Source: a virus. Taken from it: a DNA stretch of 46,684 nt. Below, piece after piece: positions 10,711 to 40,658 of this stretch. The stretch's first letter is position 1. The number at the start of each line of letters is the position of its first letter. The translations under genes and the position numbers were made by a program. The notes under the pieces were generated by a model. The model was not told where the DNA came from. It ran no database searches and saw only the letters and a list, made by a program, of their open reading frames with translations. Location: IMG/VR virus record IMGVR_UViG_3300043219_000162, positions 1 to 46,684 of that record; one strand, written 5' to 3'.

Positions 10711-11343
10711 TCAATCTGAGATCCAATCTCCGGCTCCCGGAGGAGCATACCGAGAGAACCTATCTTGTAGAAGAGCCAATGCCTCCTTCCGTGTCTTTGT
10801 TACCTCTCCTTGAGTACAGTCCAACTCCTCTGCAATAAGCCTCTCTGGAACATCTTCAAGGTAGAAGCGGACAAGGCAGAGTTTATGCTCGTCTGAGAGT
10901 TCCTCCTCCATGTAGCTAATTATCCGGAGGAACAATAGATGATTGGAAGTTTGCTCCTCAAAGTGGTCCGGAGCTTGAAGCATGAAGAAGCGGGAGGGGT
11001 CAACAACTTCATGTCTATTTTCATACGTTGTCTCTCTCGCCAAGAGGTCAAGCATCTCCCCTTTTATTCTTGGGTAGGCAAAGGTTGTGAGCTTTGTTCC
11101 TTCGTTCCTCCTCCACTTACTAAGAGCCTCAGAAAACCCTTTCAGCCCCGCGCCAATCAAATCTTGAAAGGTGATAGAGCCAACATTCCCTTTGAACATC
11201 TTCTTGGCCAACCCCTTTATCATTGGGTAGATATCGGCCTCCCCCTTGCCAGTGTCATAGACAAGGGAGTCAACCCGCGTAATAGAAACTTCTCCGGAGG
11301 TTCTCCGGAGTTGGCTTTGTTCCTGTGTCCGTTGAAGTTTCAA
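10711..11343 (-). CDS. Phage-encoded sigma factor, FliA/SigB-like sigma70 family
   Basis: 210 residues. Region 2 lies at about residues 55-105: 'ITFQDLIGAGLKGFSEAL' then 'LTTFAYPRIKGEMLDLLARE', matching the 'DLVQ.G..GL..A...FD...G..F.TYA.PRIRGEI' pattern of FliA, SigB and SigF. Region 4, with a helix-turn-helix, is near residues 155-200: 'ELSDEHKLCLVRFYLED' and 'LIAEELDCTQGEVTKTRKEAL'. Start is TTG (11341-11343) behind AAGGGA. It likely redirects host RNA polymerase to late phage promoters. The genome carries repeated CCG(T)ATNAT elements resembling a FliA -10 box, which may be its targets (inference). Confidence 0.85.
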   Translation of the reverse strand: MKLQRTQEQSQLRRTSGEVSITRVDSLVYDTGKGEADIYPMIKGLAKKMFKGNVGSITFQDLIGAGLKGFSEALSKWRRNEGTKLTTFAYPRIKGEMLDLLARETTYENRHEVVDPSRFFMLQAPDHFEEQTSNHLLFLRIISYMEEELSDEHKLCLVRFYLEDVPERLIAEELDCTQGEVTKTRKEALALLQDRFSRYAPPGAGDWISD

Positions 11344-11364: not shown

Positions 11365-12681
11365 TCAACCGACAAATGAAATCCCAATTGGGATCTTCGG
11401 CTCCATCACAAAGGTATTGTAAGAGCCGCTTGTTGCGTCTGCTTGGTCATCATGATCCGCCTCAGGTACTAGTAGAAGTTCACTCAGCCAATGAGCATTC
11501 CATGGAGCATTGCAGACAGTCACTTGCCCCTTCTCACAAGCTCTTGCAAAAGGATTCCATCTGCCCGCCTTGGGTCCGCTTGCTGGAATGCCTTTGAAGT
11601 TGTACCCCTTCAGGACTTTTCTATAGGAGGAAATAACTGTCTTGCCGGAGGAGCCGGGTTCTTGCTCCATCCGGACCCGAACATTTCTACCGTCCGCTGA
11701 TGCCGTTGACCAAACCATGTTCTCAACCCCTTCCGGGTCTAGTTGGTCTCTCCGAACATCCTCAACGAAGTACCTTCCAGTCTTGATGTCCTTGGCAATC
11801 AAAGCTCCTACAGTCCAATCCCCGCCTCCCTTAGTTGCAGCACAGTCCCAAAATCTGACTCTCTCCACAAGAGGAGGAACAAAGTCCGCCCATTCTCGGA
11901 ACCATTCCCGCTTGAAGACTGCTCCGTCCGGAACGATGTCCCAATCTCCATCCTCCCTTTGCTTCCTTGTGATCGGATCAAGGTTGGACAGAGCCTCCCT
12001 GTAAGACTCGATATCCGCATGGGGATTGTCCTCAAGCTTTGCAGGAATGAAAGCTCTCTTAGGAGGAGGATTAGTGATGAAGCGATCCTTGACCCATTGA
12101 TGTCCAATGCCGCCCGGATTGCTTGCCGCCCGCATCCGGAGAGGGACGGGGAATCCCTTGAGCCTCCGAAGCCGTCCAAAGAGGAATGTGTACTGAGACT
12201 CTAGGAACTGAGTCAACTCATCAAAAGCAATGTACTGAAACTCCGGGCCATCATAGTTGTACTTGTCCTTCTCATGTTGGAGGTACCCGAATACTAGCTT
12301 GGCTCCGGAGGGAAACTCGTATCTGTGGGCTTCATTGTTCCAGTGAGCATCCGTCCCCCTCAGCCAATTGTGTGCTCTATCAAGGATAGAGTTTGGCATG
12401 TTTAACTGAGGGTAAGTTCTTCGGAGGATGAGAGCAGAATAATCCGGAACATGGACATACTGAAGAGCCGCCATTAGAATGGCTTCTGTTTTTCCTCCTG
12501 CCGCCGCTCCTCCATAGAATGCCTCCATGCAATCGAGGTTGAGGAAGATGCCTTGCCGAGGAGTTGGGACTTTGGGGATGTAGTGATTAAGCTTGGGGAA
12601 TAGCAGAGAGCGGAGGTATTCTTCGGTCTTTAACCTGTGAACAAAGTGTACATGGCGTTTTTGAGGTACGACCAATTGCAT
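11365..12681 (-). CDS. Terminase large subunit
   Basis: 438 residues. The ATPase domain has Walker A GGAAAGGKT (residues 57-65), Walker B 'YIAFDE' (about 149-154) and 'ASNPGG' as coupling motif. The nuclease domain has acidic residues in 'RFWDCAATKGGGDWT' and in 'DHDDQADATSG' near the C-terminus. It pumps and cuts DNA during packaging. It lies upstream of sigma factor, portal and head genes. No small terminase gene is adjacent; a candidate is at 29077-30120. Confidence 0.95.
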   Translation of the reverse strand: MQLVVPQKRHVHFVHRLKTEEYLRSLLFPKLNHYIPKVPTPRQGIFLNLDCMEAFYGGAAAGGKTEAILMAALQYVHVPDYSALILRRTYPQLNMPNSILDRAHNWLRGTDAHWNNEAHRYEFPSGAKLVFGYLQHEKDKYNYDGPEFQYIAFDELTQFLESQYTFLFGRLRRLKGFPVPLRMRAASNPGGIGHQWVKDRFITNPPPKRAFIPAKLEDNPHADIESYREALSNLDPITRKQREDGDWDIVPDGAVFKREWFREWADFVPPLVERVRFWDCAATKGGGDWTVGALIAKDIKTGRYFVEDVRRDQLDPEGVENMVWSTASADGRNVRVRMEQEPGSSGKTVISSYRKVLKGYNFKGIPASGPKAGRWNPFARACEKGQVTVCNAPWNAHWLSELLLVPEADHDDQADATSGSYNTFVMEPKIPIGISFVG

Positions 12682-12857: not shown

Positions 12858-13808
12858 TCAGACCTTGGGATGCCCAACTGTCAGATACTCTCCTCTAAAG
12901 TCCCCGGTTTCATGGACTTTGATGTCCGGCAGGAGTTCCGGACAGAGAGGATACATACAACGGAAGAGGCGGACAGCAAGCCGCCGGATTTCAGGTTCGG
13001 CAAAGAGGGAGCCCCGCATATTGAAGAAATGCCGCCATGCTCGAATATTTGCCGTTACCGCAATCGGAGCCTCTGTCTCATTGGGGAGGACTGCCCTTGC
13101 AACTTGGTTGAGAGCTTTCCTCACATCCGTCCTTGACATCCCCGCCGCATCCGGATTGAGTTGCTTGAGGAGGGGAAGAAACTCTTGGGCAACTTCGGAG
13201 TATTCATCCCTTGCCGCATTGATCCGTTTCCGGAACCGGGTATCCAATCCCTCACTCAGGAGGAACTCCGGACGCTGAACAAATCGGAGCTTGGTTCCAT
13301 CAACGTATCGTTGGGAAACCTGAGAAAAAGCAAACCCCGCCCGATGTCTCACCAACTCATGAGTCAAGCTCCGGCTGATGCCGTAGAACAAGAATGAGAA
13401 GTTGGGATGCTCCATAACGGACCCATGTCCGGAATCCAAAATGTTCCGGAAGTATTTCGCCCGTTCTGCATTCTTGGTCCGCCTCTCACCGAAGGACAGA
13501 TAGCAGAGTTGCCCGGTTGCCTTGACAAGAGCCTCTGCCGGAGGAATGGACCAATCATCCTGAGAGTAGAAAGTTTCTGGGAGATAGTCCGCCCCATCCT
13601 CCCCTTCATCGGGAGTAACAAAATCATCAAAGTCCCAGAGGAATCCTCCCGCCCACAGGTTCTCAATTCCTCCTGCATCGGGTTTGCAGAGAGTCGCAAT
13701 CCCCGGCTCTCTGAGGTACTTTGTTCCTAACAGGGTTGTATAGGTTTCAACATCCCAGCGGGGAAATTCCCCAAGAATGAGTTGGCTTGATCTGTTTTCT
13801 TCAATCAA
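12858..13808 (-). CDS. thyX: FAD-dependent thymidylate synthase ThyX
   Basis: 316 residues. It would make dTMP from dUMP with methylene-tetrahydrofolate, NADPH and FAD. The core has 'GHGSVMEH', the ThyX motif starting at RHR (residues 154-156) and ending 'SQRYV', and a C-terminal 'NIRAWRHFFNMR' with the conserved Arg/His residues. Two points are unusual: an N-terminal extension of roughly 85 residues before the core, and eight instead of seven residues between RHR and the Ser of SQRY. The start overlaps the previous stop as ATGA. It is the last gene before a strong terminator. Confidence 0.93.
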   Translation of the reverse strand: MIEENRSSQLILGEFPRWDVETYTTLLGTKYLREPGIATLCKPDAGGIENLWAGGFLWDFDDFVTPDEGEDGADYLPETFYSQDDWSIPPAEALVKATGQLCYLSFGERRTKNAERAKYFRNILDSGHGSVMEHPNFSFLFYGISRSLTHELVRHRAGFAFSQVSQRYVDGTKLRFVQRPEFLLSEGLDTRFRKRINAARDEYSEVAQEFLPLLKQLNPDAAGMSRTDVRKALNQVARAVLPNETEAPIAVTANIRAWRHFFNMRGSLFAEPEIRRLAVRLFRCMYPLCPELLPDIKVHETGDFRGEYLTVGHPKV

Positions 13809-24231: not shown

Positions 24232-24479
24232 TCCTCTCCTTCCCTGTCCAGATTGATAGTTGTGTCCGGGAAGCGGTCAACAATCTCCGGGTTAATCACA
24301 ATTTCAAAGTGGTCCGGCTCAAGGAGGAAGGCTCCATCCTTGGTCCTTCCAATGCCCTTGAACTTGATGGAGAATTGAAAATCATACTTCTCCCTCCATC
24401 GTTCAATGAGAGCATCCAAGATCCCCCAAAAATACTGCTTGGGAGAGAGCTTCTTGAAAAATCGGTTGAAGATCTTCAT
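24228..24479 (-). CDS. Unknown small protein
   Basis: 83 residues. Basic N-terminus 'MKIFNRFFKKLSPKQYFWG', then strands 'FQFSIKFKGIGRTKDGAF'. ATGA overlaps on both sides couple it to the methyltransferase fusion and the MazG-like gene. Function unknown. Confidence 0.68.
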   Translation of the reverse strand: MKIFNRFFKKLSPKQYFWGILDALIERWREKYDFQFSIKFKGIGRTKDGAFLLEPDHFEIVINPEIVDRFPDTTINLDREGEE

Positions 24480-25438
24480 GCCGTGATTTCCTCCTCCTTA
24501 GCCATCAGAGCCTCAGTAGATCCGTCAACGATTGCTTGGGCAATCGTGTCCTCTGGATTCGCAACCGGAGTAAAAGCAGTATCCCCGATCTTGTACACAA
24601 AGATAGTCCGCTTGCGGTTGTCATGCTCGATAACTTCAACCGTCGCGGGCTTCCATCCTTCCATGGAGAAATCCAGAGAGACAACCCGGCTTCCCGGCTT
24701 GAGCTTCTGCTCAAAGATGGGCCTGAGGATTGCGTTGCTCTCCTGCAAGAGATACACAAACACAACGTCTATACCCGGCAGGAGATCAAAAGTTTCATTG
24801 GAGAGGATGTCCTGTTGGAGGATATCCGCCTTGGCCCGGTACTTGGAGGTCTTGATGAGATCCCTTGCCATCCCAACCCGGCTGTCATGCTTCTCAACCC
24901 CGATTGCCTTAGCGCAGATTTTCGCTGCCTTGTGGACTGTCCGGCCATCCCCGCAACCCAGATCTAGGAAGGACTCGCCAACCGCCAACTCAGCAAGCTC
25001 AAGGGCTTTGTCAATCAGTTCCGGAGGGGTTGGGACATACGGAGCCAACGCGCCCTTGTCAAGGTCTGCATTGGTCATGAGCCGGAGCATGATAGAAAGA
25101 GCTTCCCGGAATTGGTGGATGTAGAGGTACGCTCCAACCTGCTCAACCGTGAGGGCAGGATCTTCATGAACAAGACAAGCCCAAAAGAACAGCCTCATAT
25201 CGTGGACGGACTGCCCTTGGAATTCCCCCTTCATCGGGTTCTTCCCGGTTTTCTTTTTGATGAGGGTCATCGCGTTGAAATCCCAAATCAGGGTACGCGG
25301 TTTATCCAACTGAACCTCAACAATCCGTTGTTCCTCCGGCTTGTCCTTGGACCCCATCTTTGGGATTGGAACCATGGGCATGGCCCGCTCATCAATTTCA
25401 ATCTCAGGAGTTTCCTCCGGTACTGTCTTCTCACTCAT
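24476..25438 (-). CDS. Tail-chaperone-like domain fused to class I methyltransferase
   Basis: 320 residues, ATG 25438 behind ATAGGAGAC. Residues about 35-120 look like a tail assembly chaperone domain: 'WDFNAMTLIKKKTGKNPMKG', 'DMRLFFWACLVHEDPALTVEQVGAYL'. Residues about 130-290 are a class I SAM methyltransferase: 'FLDLGCGDGRTV' (SAM loop), 'AIGVEKH', 'IDVVFVYLLQESNAILRP' and 'LKPGSRVVSLDFSMEGWKP', as in the DOT1-like/CFA-like bacterial methyltransferases. The reading frame is continuous. The target is unknown. It is far from the real tail chaperone pair at 237-1072, yet its N-terminal domain resembles that protein. Confidence 0.82.
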   Translation of the reverse strand: MSEKTVPEETPEIEIDERAMPMVPIPKMGSKDKPEEQRIVEVQLDKPRTLIWDFNAMTLIKKKTGKNPMKGEFQGQSVHDMRLFFWACLVHEDPALTVEQVGAYLYIHQFREALSIMLRLMTNADLDKGALAPYVPTPPELIDKALELAELAVGESFLDLGCGDGRTVHKAAKICAKAIGVEKHDSRVGMARDLIKTSKYRAKADILQQDILSNETFDLLPGIDVVFVYLLQESNAILRPIFEQKLKPGSRVVSLDFSMEGWKPATVEVIEHDNRKRTIFVYKIGDTAFTPVANPEDTIAQAIVDGSTEALMAKEEEITA

Positions 25439-25446
25439 TGAGTCTC

Positions 25447-25632
25447 CTATCCTTTCTTGAACCAACTCGGGTTGGCTCTTCTCTTCTCTTGCAAGGATCT
25501 GACAGCAAGACCGCAAAGCCAATTCAACTTCCTCAAGAAAAGTTCCGTCCGGGCATCCTTGTCTTTCAGAGCAAGCCGCTTGAGAATCTTGGTCTCTATC
25601 CTGTCAAATTGTGGGTTGTGTTTTATATGCAT
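25447..25632 (-). CDS. Small basic protein
   Basis: 61 residues, helical and basic ('RIETKILKRLALKDKDARTE'). Its ATG lies 14 nt after the stem of a terminator, with no ribosome site; TTTTCATTTGAGACATG resembles the class 2 start region at 31595. Probably the first gene of the operon leading to the methyltransferase fusion. Function unknown. Confidence 0.6.
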   Translation of the reverse strand: MHIKHNPQFDRIETKILKRLALKDKDARTELFLRKLNWLCGLAVRSLQEKRRANPSWFKKG

Positions 25633-26059: not shown

Positions 26060-26842
26060 CTATGCCTCAGTGTGAATGTACAAAGCTCCCTTGGGGAGGA
26101 GTCTGTTGTCTCCATCTCCAATCTTGAGAGTCTCATTGTCTCTCAGTTCCCGGCAGGGGCAAGGGAGTTCCGGGTAATCCTCTCCCGTTGGTTCAACGGG
26201 GACATCAGAATACCAACAAATCTTGAGCCCCTCCGGACGGTTCTCAACGTTCCACTCTCCGGGAGATCCCCGGCCATGAGTCTTCTGAATTTCCAGCAAC
26301 CGCCCAACGTTGAAAGTTGCGAGTTTGCCAAAACGGGGTCTGACAAGGAACAGCCTCCGGGTCTCCGTGTTGGGATAGAAGACACTATGAGGAGGATCAT
26401 GCTTTTCCTCCTCAACCATGAATTGCTTGTTGAGACCAACCGCCTCCTCAAGTTCTACTTTAATTCGGTTGGCGTTGTCCCGAGTGCTGAGCCGCCATGA
26501 ATCAACGTCTGAAATCCTCTCCCCATCTTCGCCAACGTAGCAAGCCGCTGTTGGGAATGGTTGCCACTTGGGGTAAGAGTACAAACCGGGAAGGTTGACA
26601 TTTGCGGCAAGCTCATTGGTGATGAGCAACTCTGCCATTTTGGGTTGACCGTCAAGCCCTATGGTGGGGTATCGAATCTTGTATGCTGCCTGAGGTCTTG
26701 TAAGATCGGCATGAGGATCATACCAACGTTTGACCCACTTCCACTCCAGTCTGAAGTTGCTGAGCAATCCCGGATTGGCTTTCAAAAGACTCTGCCGGTT
26801 GTGCATCGGGAAAAGTCTGAGATGCGTTGTCATGTCTCGCAA
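26060..26842 (-). CDS. Unknown protein, paralogue of 38752-39690
   Basis: 260 residues, TTG start (26842) with an ideal AGGAGG 7 nt upstream. It aligns with the 312-residue protein at 38752-39690: '(L/V)ITN...A..V..PGLY.YP', 'RR(L/I)' then 'NVGR(L/M)', 'G.PG.(W/F)', and 'P.(P/E)..CR(E/D)L'. Two copies 12 kb apart with moderate divergence suggest an old duplication. Function unknown. A class 2 element at 26860-26869 precedes it. Confidence 0.75.
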   Translation of the reverse strand: MRDMTTHLRLFPMHNRQSLLKANPGLLSNFRLEWKWVKRWYDPHADLTRPQAAYKIRYPTIGLDGQPKMAELLITNELAANVNLPGLYSYPKWQPFPTAACYVGEDGERISDVDSWRLSTRDNANRIKVELEEAVGLNKQFMVEEEKHDPPHSVFYPNTETRRLFLVRPRFGKLATFNVGRLLEIQKTHGRGSPGEWNVENRPEGLKICWYSDVPVEPTGEDYPELPCPCRELRDNETLKIGDGDNRLLPKGALYIHTEA

Positions 26843-29076: not shown

Positions 29077-30120
29077 TCAGTTGATGACCTCTCCACTGCC
29101 CTTGGGTAGCATCTCCGGATTGATACCGAGACTCCCGCCCTCATTGACAATTTGCTCAATGAGGCAAAGCATGGTTGCCCCTTCCTCAATGCTCATTTGA
29201 TTCTGTACTTCCTCCTTGGCTCTCAGGAGGAACTTCTTCTTGAGATCCTCGGCAACAAGGTCTGAGTCAGGTCTCCTAGAAATTTCCTCCCCCCATCTCT
29301 CGGGAGCAAACTTGGAGAGGAGCCAACGGACATCCATTCCAAACTTGATGCCGTTCATGAGCAGTCCCAAGAGCCGGTACTCCCGCCACTCAGAGGCAGT
29401 GATGAAGGAGCGGACCATTGCTCCACAAATACTATCCGGATTTTCTGCGCCGTCAAGGAACCACTTCCGGGCCATGCCGGGATCAATCCCGAGCATTGCC
29501 AAAGCTCCGTCCGGAGGCTTGCCATGTTCAATGACTTTGCAGGCAGTCCGGATGAGAGCCTCTGATGGTTCGGAGTCCCGATCAATCGGACCCTTGAGAT
29601 GGAGAGCCACATAATCAAACTTATCGGGGACAATGAGAGAGTCCATGTCCTGAAAGAAATAGACTCCGGAGATGAGATCTTTCTCACTGCGAACAACCCC
29701 ATGAGGTTCAATCATCGGGTAATTGTTGGAGAGAAGATCTCCGGGTTTCTTAGCAGCGGACTTGGAAGACTTCCTCCTCCTCACTGCTTTCTTTGCGGGA
29801 GGTTTGGTTGCTGCTTTCTTTGCGGGAGGTTTGGTTGGTGGTTTCTTTGCGGGAGGTTTGGTTGGTGGTTTCCTTGTGGGCTTCTTGAAGGCAGGCTTTC
29901 GTTTACCTCTGGCAGAACTGGAAACAGGTTTGCCCATCCTCTTCTGTGCCGTCTTCTTGGCAACTGGTTTCTTTGCAACCGCCTTCTTTGGTGATGCTTT
30001 CTTGGCAACCCGTTTCCCCCGCTTCTTTGGTGGGACAGTTGCAGTCCCCTTGGGAGCAATTCTCTTGACAGGCTTCCTGCCTTTGGTGGTCGCGGTTCTT
30101 TTCCTTGCCGTGGTTGCCAT
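29077..30120 (-). CDS. Small-terminase-like protein with histone H1-like N-terminal tail
   Basis: 347 residues. Residues 1 to about 130 are Lys/Ala/Pro-rich like histone H1 tails, with a nine-residue KPPTKPPAK unit in three copies. From about 135 on is a globular domain: 'SEALIRTACKVIEHG', a helix-turn-helix-like 'ALAMLGIDPGMARKWFLDGAE', 'SEWREYRLLGLLMNGIKFGMDVRWLLSKFAPERWG'-type helices (key residues W, D, W and the ending PERWG). That ending and the HTH resemble phage small terminase-like DNA-binding proteins. It could bind the packaging site or condense DNA. It lies 16 kb from the large terminase, which is unusual. No ribosome site; overlaps the previous frame. Confidence 0.72.
   Translation of the reverse strand: MATTARKRTATTKGRKPVKRIAPKGTATVPPKKRGKRVAKKASPKKAVAKKPVAKKTAQKRMGKPVSSSARGKRKPAFKKPTRKPPTKPPAKKPPTKPPAKKAATKPPAKKAVRRRKSSKSAAKKPGDLLSNNYPMIEPHGVVRSEKDLISGVYFFQDMDSLIVPDKFDYVALHLKGPIDRDSEPSEALIRTACKVIEHGKPPDGALAMLGIDPGMARKWFLDGAENPDSICGAMVRSFITASEWREYRLLGLLMNGIKFGMDVRWLLSKFAPERWGEEISRRPDSDLVAEDLKKKFLLRAKEEVQNQMSIEEGATMLCLIEQIVNEGGSLGINPEMLPKGSGEVIN
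29786..29872 (-). repeat. 27-bp tandem repeat, three copies
   Basis: The unit TTTGCGGGAGGTTTGGTTG (19 nt of 27) recurs with starts near 29792, 29819 and 29846. It encodes the KPPTKPPAK units of the H1-like tail. Such repeats can change copy number by slippage. Confidence 0.8.
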
Positions 30121-30352
30121 GATGATTTAATTGGGATCTTAGCATGGAAACGGCTCTCAAGAAAAGCTCCGGAGGAAATTCAGCATAGATGGCAACCCCG
30201 CCTTGGGGAGTGGTAAAGGAGCAAAATACCCGTCCATCCGTGACTCCGAGAGTCATACCGCCATTAGGGAGAGGGACAACCCGGCAGTCTTTCTTGAGTT
30301 GTCGGAGGTAAGCATCTCCATCATTGGCAAGACACAAGGCAGAATGAGTCAT
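29903..30352 (-). CDS. Unknown protein whose end overlaps the H1-like tail frame
   Basis: 149 residues from ATG 30352 behind GGGGA. Residues 1-75 look like a real domain ('DAYLRQLKKDCRVVPLPNGG', 'GRVFCSFTTPQGGVAIYAEF', 'LRAVSMLR'). The last 70 residues read the lysine-rich start of the next gene in another frame and become Gln/Glu/Cys-rich. The 218-nt overlap is long for this genome. Either the tail is translated as such, or a frameshift links the two proteins, or the true end is a sequencing/annotation question. Confidence 0.55.
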   Translation of the reverse strand: MTHSALCLANDGDAYLRQLKKDCRVVPLPNGGMTLGVTDGRVFCSFTTPQGGVAIYAEFPPELFLRAVSMLRSQLNHHGNHGKEKNRDHQRQEACQENCSQGDCNCPTKEAGETGCQESITKEGGCKETSCQEDGTEEDGQTCFQFCQR

Positions 30353-30374
30353 GAGCTTAGTCCCCAAAAGGGGA

Positions 30375-31675: not shown

Positions 31676-32062
31676 CTATTTGGATGTTCCTCCTTTCTTC
31701 CGGGATGCCCGCTTGGTTGCGGACTTCTTTGGTGAAACCTTCTTGGGCATTGGAGGAGGAGTCTCTTCCTTGGAAGGGGCTTCCTCTTCCCTTCTCATGA
31801 CTGCCGCATCAGGGGACTCCCGCAACTCCTTGAGGAAGTTTGGAATTTCCTCCTCTTCCGGGTCTGTGGTCTTCACTGCCGGAGGAATTTCTTCCGGACC
31901 TTTGAGGCTGTGCTCCCGGCACCATTCCCCCTCATCAATCTCCGGCCAAAAGCCCCTTGGGCAATCTCTGGCAATCACTCCGGGCAAGCTTGCCCGACAC
32001 GTCCCGGCAGACCCTTCCGTCCGCCTCCATGCGTCACAGTTCCCACAACACTCTTTATCCAT
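31676..32062 (-). CDS. Cys-rich protein with lysine-rich C-terminal tail
   Basis: 128 residues. N-terminal metal site: 'CCGNCDAWRR', 'GTCRASLPG', 'DCPRGFWPEIDEGEWC'. An acidic middle leads to a basic tail 'PKKVSPKKSATKRASRKKGG' like histone H1 tails. Function unknown; the tail suggests nucleic-acid binding. ATG 32062 follows AAAGGGAG. Confidence 0.72.
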   Translation of the reverse strand: MDKECCGNCDAWRRTEGSAGTCRASLPGVIARDCPRGFWPEIDEGEWCREHSLKGPEEIPPAVKTTDPEEEEIPNFLKELRESPDAAVMRREEEAPSKEETPPPMPKKVSPKKSATKRASRKKGGTSK

Positions 32063-33966: not shown

Positions 33967-36402
33967 CTATGATGCTCCTCTTGGTTTACTGGTACCGCAA
34001 GAGCCACAAGCAGTCTTGGTTTTGGAGTAGTTCCGGGCATGGCAGGATGGACACTCCCAATGCTGAGCAGAGCAGTTGGGACAAAGAGAAGTCTTCCCCG
34101 GCACTGTCTGGAGACACTGGGAGCAAACATAGTCCGCCCCGGAGGGATGCCGGAACATGGTCCTCTTTGGATAAGCACTTGGACCAAATACGTCTTGGAA
34201 GTTTGGGGAGGAACTCATCCTCCCGGTCACTGTTCCAACAGGAGAAGAAGGAGGAACTTTCCAATCATCATCATCAATGTAGTCCCCATCCTCCCCAACA
34301 TCAGCCGTGTTGTTGATGAAGTTCCGGGAGTTGTCTGCAAGGTTGTAATGGCAGACCGTGCAAGTCTGCTCTTTGACTCCCTCAAGATAGCCGCAAGATT
34401 CACACTTCTGGACTCCGCAGTCTCCGCACTGATTGAATGCTCCGGGGATTCTGAGACCACAGGAGCAAGTCCACTCCCCTTTGTACTTGAGCCGGACTGC
34501 GTTCCTCTGTGTTCCGCAACCCAAACAACCCGCAAGATGGAGACCTAGACCGCTCCCACAGTGGAGACACTGCCAAGAATTCCCCACAAGGTTCCTCCCG
34601 CAATTGTTGCAGGAGCCTTGAGTGCCGGAGCAGTTGGTATTGCAGTCCGGACATGTCCAATAGTTCTTTCTGGAAGAACAGTTGACGCACTTGAAAACGT
34701 TGTAAGGGTTGTGAGTCTCTCCGCAAGCTCCACAAGTCCACACATCTGAGGAAGGAGGTCTTATCTTATTGCACTTGCAGTTTATGCAGAAACGGGAGGT
34801 ATCTGCATTGGCCTGTCCACAGTCCGGGCAATTCCAAGTAACCTCATCCGGAGGAGTTGCAGGAGGAGGAGAAGGGAGAGGGGTTGGCTCAACCCAATCC
34901 GGATCTTTTCTGTGTTGGTTGCAACGGAAATCAGAGGAGACCCTGAGGTATGCTGTCTCTCCGTCCGCAAGGAGAGGAAGATGGAGGGAGGCAAAAAGTT
35001 CCTCCCCCAAGTGTTCTGCCCAACTAGCAAGGGATAAGCCGCCGCAAATGCCAACCCGCTCCCCCTCAGCATCCTGAAGAGGCTTGAAGAACTCGCAAGA
35101 GTCACATGTACCTTCAAAAGTCTTGAGCCGGTCTTTAAGATCGGTAGTGTGACCCTCCAACGCCTTTCTCATGTCCTTGAGGAGTTGGAGTTCATGAGCC
35201 AACTTGGAGTTGGCTTCTGCTTGGAAGATTAAGAACTCCTGCTTGAGACCGCTGTACCTTTGCTCCCAAGAGCCGGTAGTCTTCTCAATCCCGGCAAAAG
35301 TCTGAGCCGCTGCAATGTCCTCCTGAATCTTCTTCATAGCAACATCAAACTCTTGCGTTGCCATTGCTGCCTTGACTGCATCCGCTCCGAGAGTTCCAAG
35401 AGCCGTGGAAATCGACAACCCAAGCTGCTTGCTGATGGTCTTGATCTTCTGCCGGAAGTCATTCATCCCCTTGACGTTGATGGTCAAATCGGGCATCTTC
35501 GGCACATTGGGGCTTCTTCGCTTGGGGATGTCCTCTGCCATAGATCTATTATCCTCCTCCTCCCCTTCAGATGCAAGAGGCAATCCAAGACCATCACTGT
35601 GCTTCTCCACAAGGGCAGCTTCAAAAGGCATGATTGATCCGTCCGTCTTCTTCAGGTAGCCAATAGAAATGGACTTATCAAAGCCCAAGTCCATGGCTCT
35701 GGAGAGCTTGGTCTTTTGGATGTCCGTCATGGTGGCAGGATCAAATTCCAATTCAACCTCATGAAGAGCGGAGTTGACATCAACAACCGCCTTCACTGTT
35801 GCCTGTCCATCCGGGTCCGGGCCTTGCAGGTAGGTACTCTTAGGCCAATCAGAAGTTTCTCCGGGAGTGACCATGGTGATACTTTTCAGTTTCCCGATAG
35901 GAACCCCATTCAAGGTCACCGGCAAATCTTGCTTGGGAGGAAGTTTAACAATGGGATGAACCCCATCAGAGGTTGTTGTGTAGCCGAACTCTGCCGCCTC
36001 AAGCTCTTCCGTGGTCCATTCCCCGGAGAGAGGATCTCCAACATAACCCGCAATCTCCGGCATCTCCCCCGTCTCTTGGTACGTTCTGGAAATGAGCTTG
36101 TCAACCTCCTCCTGAGTGAATGGTTGGAGGAAGGATTTCTTGTTGAGAGGTTTGGGAGGTTTGGGAGGTTCAGATAAGTCAACAAAATTGTTGATGTGTC
36201 CATGGAAGAATGAGTTTGGATGCAGAGTGTCAAGGTCATCCACTGAAATCCTGTTCCTCCTGAGTGAGCCGATAAGACCATGGAACTCCGTATTGGTCAT
36301 CTCGGTACCATCGGGCAGATAGACCTTCTTGGGAGATGGAGGAGGAGTGGTTGCCCCTCCTGCTATCTTCTCCCATGCAATCCACTCAGGAGGAAAGCTC
36401 AT
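33967..36402 (-). CDS. Large multi-zinc-ribbon protein
   Basis: 811 residues. Residues 1 to about 290: Pro-rich start, helix, and a beta domain ('LPVTLNGVPIGKLKSITMVTPG'). About 295-430: helical, probably coiled coil ('LAHELQLLKDMRKALEGHTTD'). About 435-500: a Cys site 'CDSCEFFKP...GICGG...FRCNQH'. About 520-700 and 755-811: eight C-x2-C...C-x2-C ribbons, several starting with W-x-C (WNCPDC, WTCGAC, YWTCPDC, WQCLHC, WECPSC), like tandem RanBP2-type fingers. One ribbon has C-x-C (WTCSC). Such arrays bind RNA or proteins in cellular organisms. Function in the phage is unknown. Confidence 0.8.
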   Translation of the reverse strand: MSFPPEWIAWEKIAGGATTPPPSPKKVYLPDGTEMTNTEFHGLIGSLRRNRISVDDLDTLHPNSFFHGHINNFVDLSEPPKPPKPLNKKSFLQPFTQEEVDKLISRTYQETGEMPEIAGYVGDPLSGEWTTEELEAAEFGYTTTSDGVHPIVKLPPKQDLPVTLNGVPIGKLKSITMVTPGETSDWPKSTYLQGPDPDGQATVKAVVDVNSALHEVELEFDPATMTDIQKTKLSRAMDLGFDKSISIGYLKKTDGSIMPFEAALVEKHSDGLGLPLASEGEEEDNRSMAEDIPKRRSPNVPKMPDLTINVKGMNDFRQKIKTISKQLGLSISTALGTLGADAVKAAMATQEFDVAMKKIQEDIAAAQTFAGIEKTTGSWEQRYSGLKQEFLIFQAEANSKLAHELQLLKDMRKALEGHTTDLKDRLKTFEGTCDSCEFFKPLQDAEGERVGICGGLSLASWAEHLGEELFASLHLPLLADGETAYLRVSSDFRCNQHRKDPDWVEPTPLPSPPPATPPDEVTWNCPDCGQANADTSRFCINCKCNKIRPPSSDVWTCGACGETHNPYNVFKCVNCSSRKNYWTCPDCNTNCSGTQGSCNNCGRNLVGNSWQCLHCGSGLGLHLAGCLGCGTQRNAVRLKYKGEWTCSCGLRIPGAFNQCGDCGVQKCESCGYLEGVKEQTCTVCHYNLADNSRNFINNTADVGEDGDYIDDDDWKVPPSSPVGTVTGRMSSSPNFQDVFGPSAYPKRTMFRHPSGADYVCSQCLQTVPGKTSLCPNCSAQHWECPSCHARNYSKTKTACGSCGTSKPRGAS

Positions 36403-38751: not shown

Positions 38752-39690
38752 CTATTCAACGATGATGCCGATTCTCTCGGCAACCACCTTGAGGAGGTTC
38801 CAAATCTTCTCACTGAAGTCCCCTCCTCCCGGTTCTCCTCCTCCCGGTTCAATGATCTGAACAGAGCCATTGACATCAAACGGTGACCGCTTGACGAGCT
38901 TCTCATCCGCTGCCAAGTCCCGGCAAGGGATGGGAACCTCTGGGAGAGTCTCCGTTGGGTCTTGGAGGTCAAGGTCTGATACCCAGACGATTGAGTCTTC
39001 TCCTCGGAGAATGAAATGCCCCGGAGCACCAACCCCGTCCCGGTTCATCTTGCCGAACATCCGGCCAACATTGAGCCGAGATGCAGGTTTGCCCTGAAGA
39101 GCAAGGCTCCAAATCCGCCGTCCTTCCTTGAAGTTGTTCTCCGGGACTTCCGTGTCCGTTATTCCATAGACGTATCGGAAGATCATCCCGTCCAATGAAT
39201 CCTCTGAGATGTACCAGTCCTTTCCGGGAAGGTCTTCCCGGATCTTGGCATAGAGGGCTTCGGCTTGCGGGAAGTAAGACAACCGGGTTGCCGGGATCAG
39301 TCCGGTTGCGTTGCCATCCGGGCCTTGAACGAAAGCCCTTGTTGGCATGACCACGTACTCCGGATAATCGTACAAACCGGGGATGCTGACTTGGCAGGCT
39401 TGCCGGTTGGTAATCACCATGGTCCGGAGGACAGGAGGGTCCGATGCCCGATCAAGGTACTTGAACATATAGACATCATCAGGAGGAAGTGTTGCCGCCG
39501 CTGAGTCCCACCAATATTTCACGGTAGATGCGGAGAGGTTGAACGGAGGGGCTTGGCTCCCGAATCGGAGGGCATACAGCTTGCGGGTATACCTGATGAA
39601 GACTTGGAGGAACTGAGTTCCAAAGAACTCTTGCCCCTCCGGTCTTGGCTTCTCTTCTCGGATGGAGAGAGGGAGTGTTTGTGTTCCCAT
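38752..39690 (-). CDS. Unknown protein, paralogue of 26060-26842
   Basis: 312 residues from ATG 39690 behind AAAGGAGC. Shares with 26060-26842: 'VITNRQACQVSIPGLYDYPE', 'RRIWSLALQGKPASRLNVGRM', 'GVGAPGHFI' and 'VPIPCRDLAADEKLVK'. It carries an extra C-terminal piece with 'GGGEPGGGDFSEKIWNLLKVV'. Its longer body is mainly beta. Function unknown. Confidence 0.76.
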   Translation of the reverse strand: MGTQTLPLSIREEKPRPEGQEFFGTQFLQVFIRYTRKLYALRFGSQAPPFNLSASTVKYWWDSAAATLPPDDVYMFKYLDRASDPPVLRTMVITNRQACQVSIPGLYDYPEYVVMPTRAFVQGPDGNATGLIPATRLSYFPQAEALYAKIREDLPGKDWYISEDSLDGMIFRYVYGITDTEVPENNFKEGRRIWSLALQGKPASRLNVGRMFGKMNRDGVGAPGHFILRGEDSIVWVSDLDLQDPTETLPEVPIPCRDLAADEKLVKRSPFDVNGSVQIIEPGGGEPGGGDFSEKIWNLLKVVAERIGIIVE

Positions 39691-39733
39691 TCTAATGTTG
39701 CTCCTTTGCAAAGGGATGGTCTGCTGTTCAGAC

Positions 39734-40033
39734 TCACTTAGATGATACGGATTTTCTTTTCCCTTTGCTGGGAGCTTTCTTGGGAGGAGCTTTCTTTCCG
39801 GATCTTTTCCTTGGAGTCAGCCCCCAAGCCTTTCCCCGAGTTGGCAAGGTAGCAAAGGAGGGTCCAATTTCCTCTCCGTCCTTGTGGACTGCTCTGCATA
39901 CCGCCTCATAGGGAATGCCCTTGATAGAACAGAACCTCATCACAGGAGGAAAGTTCCCTTTGTTGAGTTGGTTCTTGATCCGGTTCCAGTCCTCATCCGG
40001 GATCTCATGTTCAACTATCTCCGTGACGATCAT
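39734..40033 (-). CDS. Small protein with lysine-rich C-terminal tail
   Basis: 99 residues. Globular part 'MIVTEIVEHEIPDEDWNRIK' and 'GIPYEAVCRAVHKDGEEIG', then a tail 'GKKAPPKKAPSKGKRKSVSS' like the H1 tails of two other proteins here. Probably binds nucleic acid. ATGA overlap with the previous gene. Confidence 0.7.
   Translation of the reverse strand: MIVTEIVEHEIPDEDWNRIKNQLNKGNFPPVMRFCSIKGIPYEAVCRAVHKDGEEIGPSFATLPTRGKAWGLTPRKRSGKKAPPKKAPSKGKRKSVSSK
39741..39750 (-). promoter_or_regulatory. Class 2 promoter-like element CCGTATCATC
   Basis: Overlaps the last codons of the 39734 gene (VSSK) and precedes the 39690 gene. Confidence 0.4.
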
Positions 40034-40215
40034 CCTTCCTCCAAGTCTCTCAACAACTCACTGCTCCGGGAGTAGACTTCCCCCGGATCAAAATGGATGA
40101 GCCTGCCGTTGGCTTTCTTGATGTGGTTCTCAATCACGTCTTCAACGATCTCCCGATGATCCCGGATGAGGATGAAGAGGAGCCCTTGGACTTTGTTCCT
40201 GTCAAGGTCCGGCAT
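40030..40215 (-). CDS. Small helical protein
   Basis: 61 residues, 'LLFILIRDHREIVEDVIENHI' helix and 'GRLIHFDPGEVYSRS'. ATGA/TAATG overlaps on both sides. Function unknown. Confidence 0.65.
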   Translation of the reverse strand: MPDLDRNKVQGLLFILIRDHREIVEDVIENHIKKANGRLIHFDPGEVYSRSSELLRDLEEG

Positions 40216-40658
40216 TACTTCCTCCTCTTTGCATTCCGCTTGGTGACATTGGAGACCCGTCTTCCAGCTTCTGCCTCCTCTTGCTGCTTGAGCACTGTAT
40301 CAAACATCCCCCAAAAACCGCTCCTCTTCTCTCCGGTTGCCATCCAATCCCGGAGCCGCTGAGCAACATCATGGGCTTTGTCTCTTGGCAGAAAAGGAGC
40401 CCCAACGGGAATCATGAGAACTGGGAGACCTTGGTACTTGAGCATGTAATGGTCAAAATCCTCCATTGCGTCATCCTCGGTGTACTCGATAGTGAAGAGG
40501 AAGTTGTCCCCTCCCACCTTCTCCATGAGTCTCCGGATTTGCCCCTTGGATACGTTCGGGGGAAAGCCCCCTTGCTGCAAGAGGAGCCGGAGGGTCTCCC
40601 CAAGCATTGCTCTCTCCTCTACCGTCAACCTGAGTTGGTCTAAGATCTTGTCTGGCAT
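40215..40658 (-). CDS. Unknown protein
   Basis: 147 residues. Helical start 'LDQLRLTVEERAMLGETLRLL', then 'FTIEYTEDDAMEDFDHYML' and 'LPVLMIPVGAPFL'; very basic C-terminus 'VSNVTKRNAKRRK'. Function unknown. Confidence 0.7.
   Translation of the reverse strand: MPDKILDQLRLTVEERAMLGETLRLLLQQGGFPPNVSKGQIRRLMEKVGGDNFLFTIEYTEDDAMEDFDHYMLKYQGLPVLMIPVGAPFLPRDKAHDVAQRLRDWMATGEKRSGFWGMFDTVLKQQEEAEAGRRVSNVTKRNAKRRK

Follow-up and report, generated by a model that had tools for sequence, protein, structure and literature searches.

A probable small terminase with a histone H1-like basic tail, encoded at a distance from the large terminase gene in a phage lineage known from metagenomes

The 46,684-nucleotide stretch of viral DNA analysed here (IMG/VR record IMGVR_UViG_3300043219_000162, referred to below as the window) encodes at 29077-30120, on the minus strand, a 347-residue protein of ~38 kDa which in our judgement is probably the phage's small terminase (TerS), one that carries a basic tail, is encoded away from the large terminase gene (terL) and uses its tail to assist DNA capture in the manner proposed below. 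Small terminases recognise the phage genome and hand it to the large subunit, TerL. The reading frame opens with an ATG at 30120, has the same coordinates as in the initial annotation and shows no clear Shine-Dalgarno site at its start. The window is a genome fragment, and both it and the relatives discussed here are metagenomic records.

The first part of this protein has an unusual composition. The initial annotation had described about 130 Lys/Ala/Pro-rich, histone H1-like residues together with a 27-bp repeat encoding KPPTKPPAK, and both features are borne out. Residues 1-126 (29743-30120, minus strand) comprise 36 lysines, 21 alanines, 20 prolines and 13 arginines (71% K/A/P/R), have a net charge of +49 and contain no Asp or Glu, the first acidic residue of the protein being number 128; what follows is an acidic globular domain with a net charge of -11. 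Across all six frames, no 100-residue stretch of the window is more basic than one inside this tail (net +40), and the window maximum over 60 residues (+25) lies here as well; for that length 20 shuffles of the window in blocks of three bases gave 12-21. At the DNA level the tail shows two repeat layers: a young array of 27-bp tandem units (29784-29880, minus strand; 3.6 copies, 94% match) encoding K-P-P-T-K-P-P-A-K-type units, with KPPTKPPAK itself at residues 84-92, and an older, diverged array of four 15-bp copies (29940-30016, minus strand). An upstream ORF (29903-30367, minus strand) overlaps the tail-coding DNA by ~218 bases in a different frame, so that two reading frames may be in use here.

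Histone H1 tails and the bacterial H1-like proteins AlgP and Hc1/Hc2 are likewise rich in Lys, Ala and Pro, with short repeats. The Lys/Ala/Pro-rich basic composition typical of H1-like proteins is present in the TerS tail, but the likeness is one of composition only: the full-length protein gave no Pfam match at E<=1, to an H1 or H1-like family or to any other, and here the tail is fused to the core of a packaging protein. The tail is probably disordered, and by analogy tails of this kind would be expected to lack a fixed structure and to bind DNA whatever its sequence.

Assigning the globular domain required an indirect route. On its own the domain found no match in Pfam, PHROGs, the PDB or IMG/VR viral contigs, and tblastn against phage records returned a single chance-level match (E=9). 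The whole protein did not match phrog_4102 either, a scan of the window with the phrog_4102 HMM found nothing, and nor did a contig scan with the neighbouring downstream gene. Because the domain alone matched nothing, TerL (11365-12681, minus strand) was taken as bait. When the domain was compared by phmmer with the ORFs of terL-related contigs, the top match was an ORF upstream of terL in the contig L011 which is itself a phrog_4102 'terminase small subunit' (5e-13). We then used a TerS profile grown from five terL-upstream TerS genes of other viruses, from which the window protein was left out, and this ranked the window gene first among 483 window ORFs (E=1.3e-5, with the runner-up at 0.13); the domain alone scored 22.3 bits with it, while the best of 5000 shuffles reached 4.8. 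A phmmer search with the domain among 24,394 ORFs from 229 loci placed terL-adjacent TerS in all three top positions, each match being weak (E 0.09-0.18). A broader, iterated profile of 67 sequences still gave the domain 19.7 bits, with shuffles reaching 8.4 at most; composition accounts for part of what the full-length protein scores with this profile, and the domain-only figures are preferred for that reason.

The larger relatives, which came to light when the major capsid and portal proteins were used as queries, strengthen this assignment. The records G050 (67.8 kb), G052 (77.6 kb) and G053 (89.0 kb) each carry a terL of the window type, and each encodes a homologue of the domain (4.4e-5 in G052, 8.8e-7 in G053 and 3.6e-10 in G050). 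An independent TerS family alignment without the window protein retrieves the same three ORFs, one per genome (1.5e-13, 1.8e-13 and 9.9e-12), and phrog_4102 is the one PHROG family that they match below E=0.1 (2.5e-7, 3.1e-17 and 1.4e-7). The window protein is 23-27% identical to these orthologues, and an alignment of the four members, compared with the TerS family by hhalign, gave a probability of 98% (E=1.9e-13) over a span from the helix-turn-helix (HTH) to the C-terminal motif; the same alignment had no significant match in the PDB. The window-free HMM, the phmmer ranking, the PHROG match of the orthologues and the profile-profile comparison thus all support the earlier suggestion of a small-terminase-type domain. 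Neither the TerS profile run on the 483 ORFs nor the comparison of ~26 window proteins with PHROGs revealed another TerS in the window, although one may lie in the part of the genome that this fragment lacks. TerS identity, a basic tail and separation from terL all recur in the three relatives, and are therefore traits of one phage lineage.

The position of the gene departs from custom. TerL (phrog_979, 1.4e-106; Terminase_6C/6N) is ~50% identical to its counterpart in the methanogen virus psiM2 and 45% to those of Gordonia phages, and its gene lies ~16.4 kb downstream of TerS. As the initial annotation had noted, no small terminase adjoins terL: directly upstream, in the usual TerS place, is thyX (12858-13808, minus strand; phrog_85), which also stands upstream of terL in G052 and in a further record, G051, and downstream, between terL and the portal gene, is a sigma-70-region-2-like gene (10711-11343, minus strand). 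The placement customary for TerS is absent from the window, but adjacency to terL is a custom of gene order and no part of the definition of a TerS. The gene is upstream of terL by 16.4 kb in the window, ~18.6 kb in G052 and ~4.7 kb in G053. On the G050 contig each of the two genes is close to a different end; no overlap between the ends was found, and if they join, the genes would be at least 7.7 kb apart. The stretch from TerS to terL in G052 includes homologues of the window genes at 26060, 24476, 23244, 23833 (MazG) and 12858 (thyX), their order being almost unchanged, and those of 26060 and 24476 are retained in G053 as well.

The nearest short relative, L073, shares with the window the order of terL, sigma-like gene, portal, MuF-like gene, protease and capsid gene; a thyX-like end precedes its terL, no TerS adjoins it, and none was found in the other half of the record. 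The sigma-70-region-2-like gene keeps its place in L073 (4150-4767). Among close terL relatives the TerS upstream of terL is of varied type, and in some no TerS can be recognised there, so that the type of TerS cannot be predicted from terL alone. Since a divergent TerS that is distant from terL is easily overlooked, phages seemingly devoid of one merit a renewed search with lineage profiles.

This unusual location, in an upstream cluster 16.4 kb from terL, is one reason to consider that the protein may derive from a TerS but now serve as a chromatin-like or regulatory protein that coats, silences or compacts phage or host DNA, with no role in packaging and with the true TerS encoded in the missing part of the genome. 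The H1-like tail, the fragmentary state of the window and the Lys-rich C-termini of two or three other window proteins would all agree with this. However, in each of the relatives of 67.8-89.0 kb a single TerS-like ORF was found, which is the orthologue of the window gene, and the C-terminal motif common to terL-adjacent TerS has been kept, and so we regard the loss of a packaging role as rather unlikely.

Returning to the protein as a small terminase, its tail can be followed across the lineage. Basic N-terminal tails are found in all four members, with lengths, as set by a simple charge criterion, of 125 (window), 124, ~95 and 43 residues and net charges of +49, +40, +24 and +14. Over the first 45 residues the four carry +17, +15, +13 and +14, and of the 376 ORFs, all 100 residues or longer, that served as background ~2% reach +13 over this length, several of them being TerS themselves; the comparison of the four tails ignores common descent, and they may represent one inherited event. 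No comparable tail was seen in a survey of ~60 other TerS, the nearest being that of L011 (+19 over 52 residues). One further candidate, L112, has at positions 1-130 a KPKPKP-encoding 6-bp repeat before a TerS domain, which could be a further basic tail or could stem from faulty assembly; as it lies at a contig end and has no visible start codon, it was not counted as a second tailed TerS.

The tails have preserved their charge while varying in length and sequence, a pattern that fits selection on charge. One might instead suppose that the protein is a TerS whose tail does something else, such as binding RNA or nucleotides or contacting the acidic C-terminus of the portal protein, or that the tail arose by repeat slippage and is nearly neutral. 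The spread of lengths from 43 to 125 residues, the recent slippage in the repeats and the long acidic stretch at the end of the portal protein could be taken in this sense, but the strong positive charge persists in all four members despite the changes in sequence and length. Slippage alone would not be expected to preserve charge, which disfavours that version of the argument, and overall we find another job for the tail improbable.

At the level of sequence alignment, the protein is compatible with the TerS layout of an N-terminal HTH, a helical core and a variable C-terminus. The HTH-like and WLLSKFAPERWG patterns that the initial annotation had pointed out could be placed at residues 188-222 (29455-29559, minus strand), which align with the HTH region of TerS profiles, and at residues 266-277 (29290-29325, minus strand), which fit the W-L-ERR-P-x-x-W-G motif of terL-adjacent TerS. 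A C-terminal motif, SIEEGATMLCLIEQIVNEGGSLG (residues 310-332; 29125-29193, minus strand), can be aligned within the lineage and to other TerS, and is possibly the TerL-binding element. HTH motifs are common and direct pairwise scores between the window protein and known TerS are weak (E=0.015 and 0.09), but a generic HTH protein, such as a repressor or a transposase-like protein, with a chance likeness to TerS is very improbable given that the match does not stop at the HTH but takes in the W-G motif and reaches the C-terminal motif, and that the orthologues convincingly match TerS only. Profile, shuffle, hhalign and orthologue evidence agree that the homology with known TerS is not confined to the HTH. 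Judged from sequence, the TerS core, with its HTH, W-L-x-x-x-x-P-x-x-W-G motif and C-terminal motif, is of the phrog_4102 and Sf6 gp1-like kind.

Comparison with these known systems shows both what is shared and what is peculiar to the window protein. The phrog_4102 TerS of tailed archaeal and bacterial viruses, for example Haloferax tailed virus 1 and Halorubrum tailed virus 29, resemble it in the HTH, the central part and the W-G and C-terminal motifs, and phrog_4102 is paired with the same TerL family in 8 of 35 terL-related records; their genes, however, stand directly before terL and encode no long basic tail, the opposite of the window TerS in both respects. The TerS family profile also matches the solved Sf6 gp1 (PDB 3hef, 4dyc; 7.8e-7 with 3hef), a protein of ~140 residues without an H1-like tail, in contrast to the 347 residues and tail seen here. 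Characterised TerS form rings with outward-facing HTHs from subunits of ~15-21 kDa (PMC9611059), compared with ~38 kDa for the window protein. A search of open-licence papers turned up no TerS described as having a lysine-rich, histone-like or extended tail. To our knowledge, none with an H1-like tail has been described.

How TerS finds and holds viral DNA is debated between wrapping and threading models (PMC9611059, PMC11331095), and there is precedent for a contribution of disordered basic termini to TerS-DNA binding (PMC11331095, PMC9611059). Lys6 in the unstructured N-terminus of Sf6 TerS is needed for DNA binding, disordered N- or C-terminal regions of TerS can be essential for it, and in a solved complex the terminal regions fold on DNA (PMC11331095). 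Placed beside each HTH, a tail of 126 residues and +49 should confer strong non-specific affinity for DNA, and it is from this expectation that we infer a role in capture, sliding and possibly condensation. In the mechanism that we propose, a ring of ~8-12 TerS subunits would display the tails next to the HTHs, where together they would contribute several hundred positive charges; by binding phage DNA without sequence preference the tails would allow the ring to capture it and then to slide to, or remain at, the pac or cos site, and the protein may bend or condense the DNA as packaging starts. The tail would thus act as a non-specific grip on DNA and possibly as a condensing element, and the suggestion made earlier that it couples condensation with packaging is a reasonable putative mechanism. 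Ring formation, binding and condensation of DNA, site recognition and contact with TerL are all presumed for this TerS. It is also conceivable, if unlikely, that the protein doubles as a viral chromatin protein, its tails coating and condensing phage DNA after replication, marking it and bringing it to the packaging motor in compact form; if true, this would explain the gene's place in an upstream cluster at a distance from terL. As a natural and separable H1-like tail that is lineage-wide and variable in length, it makes the role of non-specific charge in TerS function directly testable.

Lys-rich C-terminal tails occur in other proteins of the window, those encoded at 31676-32062, 39734-40033 and 40215-40658 (all minus strand; for example PKKVSPKKSATKRASRKKGGTSK and KRSGKKAPPKKAPSKGKRKSVSSK), and basic tails may consequently be a wider habit of this phage. 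Shared DNA between these tails and that of TerS was considered as well and is unsupported, with short matches only. Other minus-strand genes of the window also have features worth recording. The second half of an 811-residue protein without a PHROG match (33967-36402) is rich in CxxC zinc-ribbon-like motifs. The ORF at 24476-25522 combines a tail-protein-like part (phrog_2115) with a methyltransferase-like part and is matched in G052 and G053 by homologues that are about as long. The genes at 26060-26842 and 38752-39711, of unassigned function, are related to each other and both match one and the same gene in G052 and one in G053, which makes them a duplication in the window.
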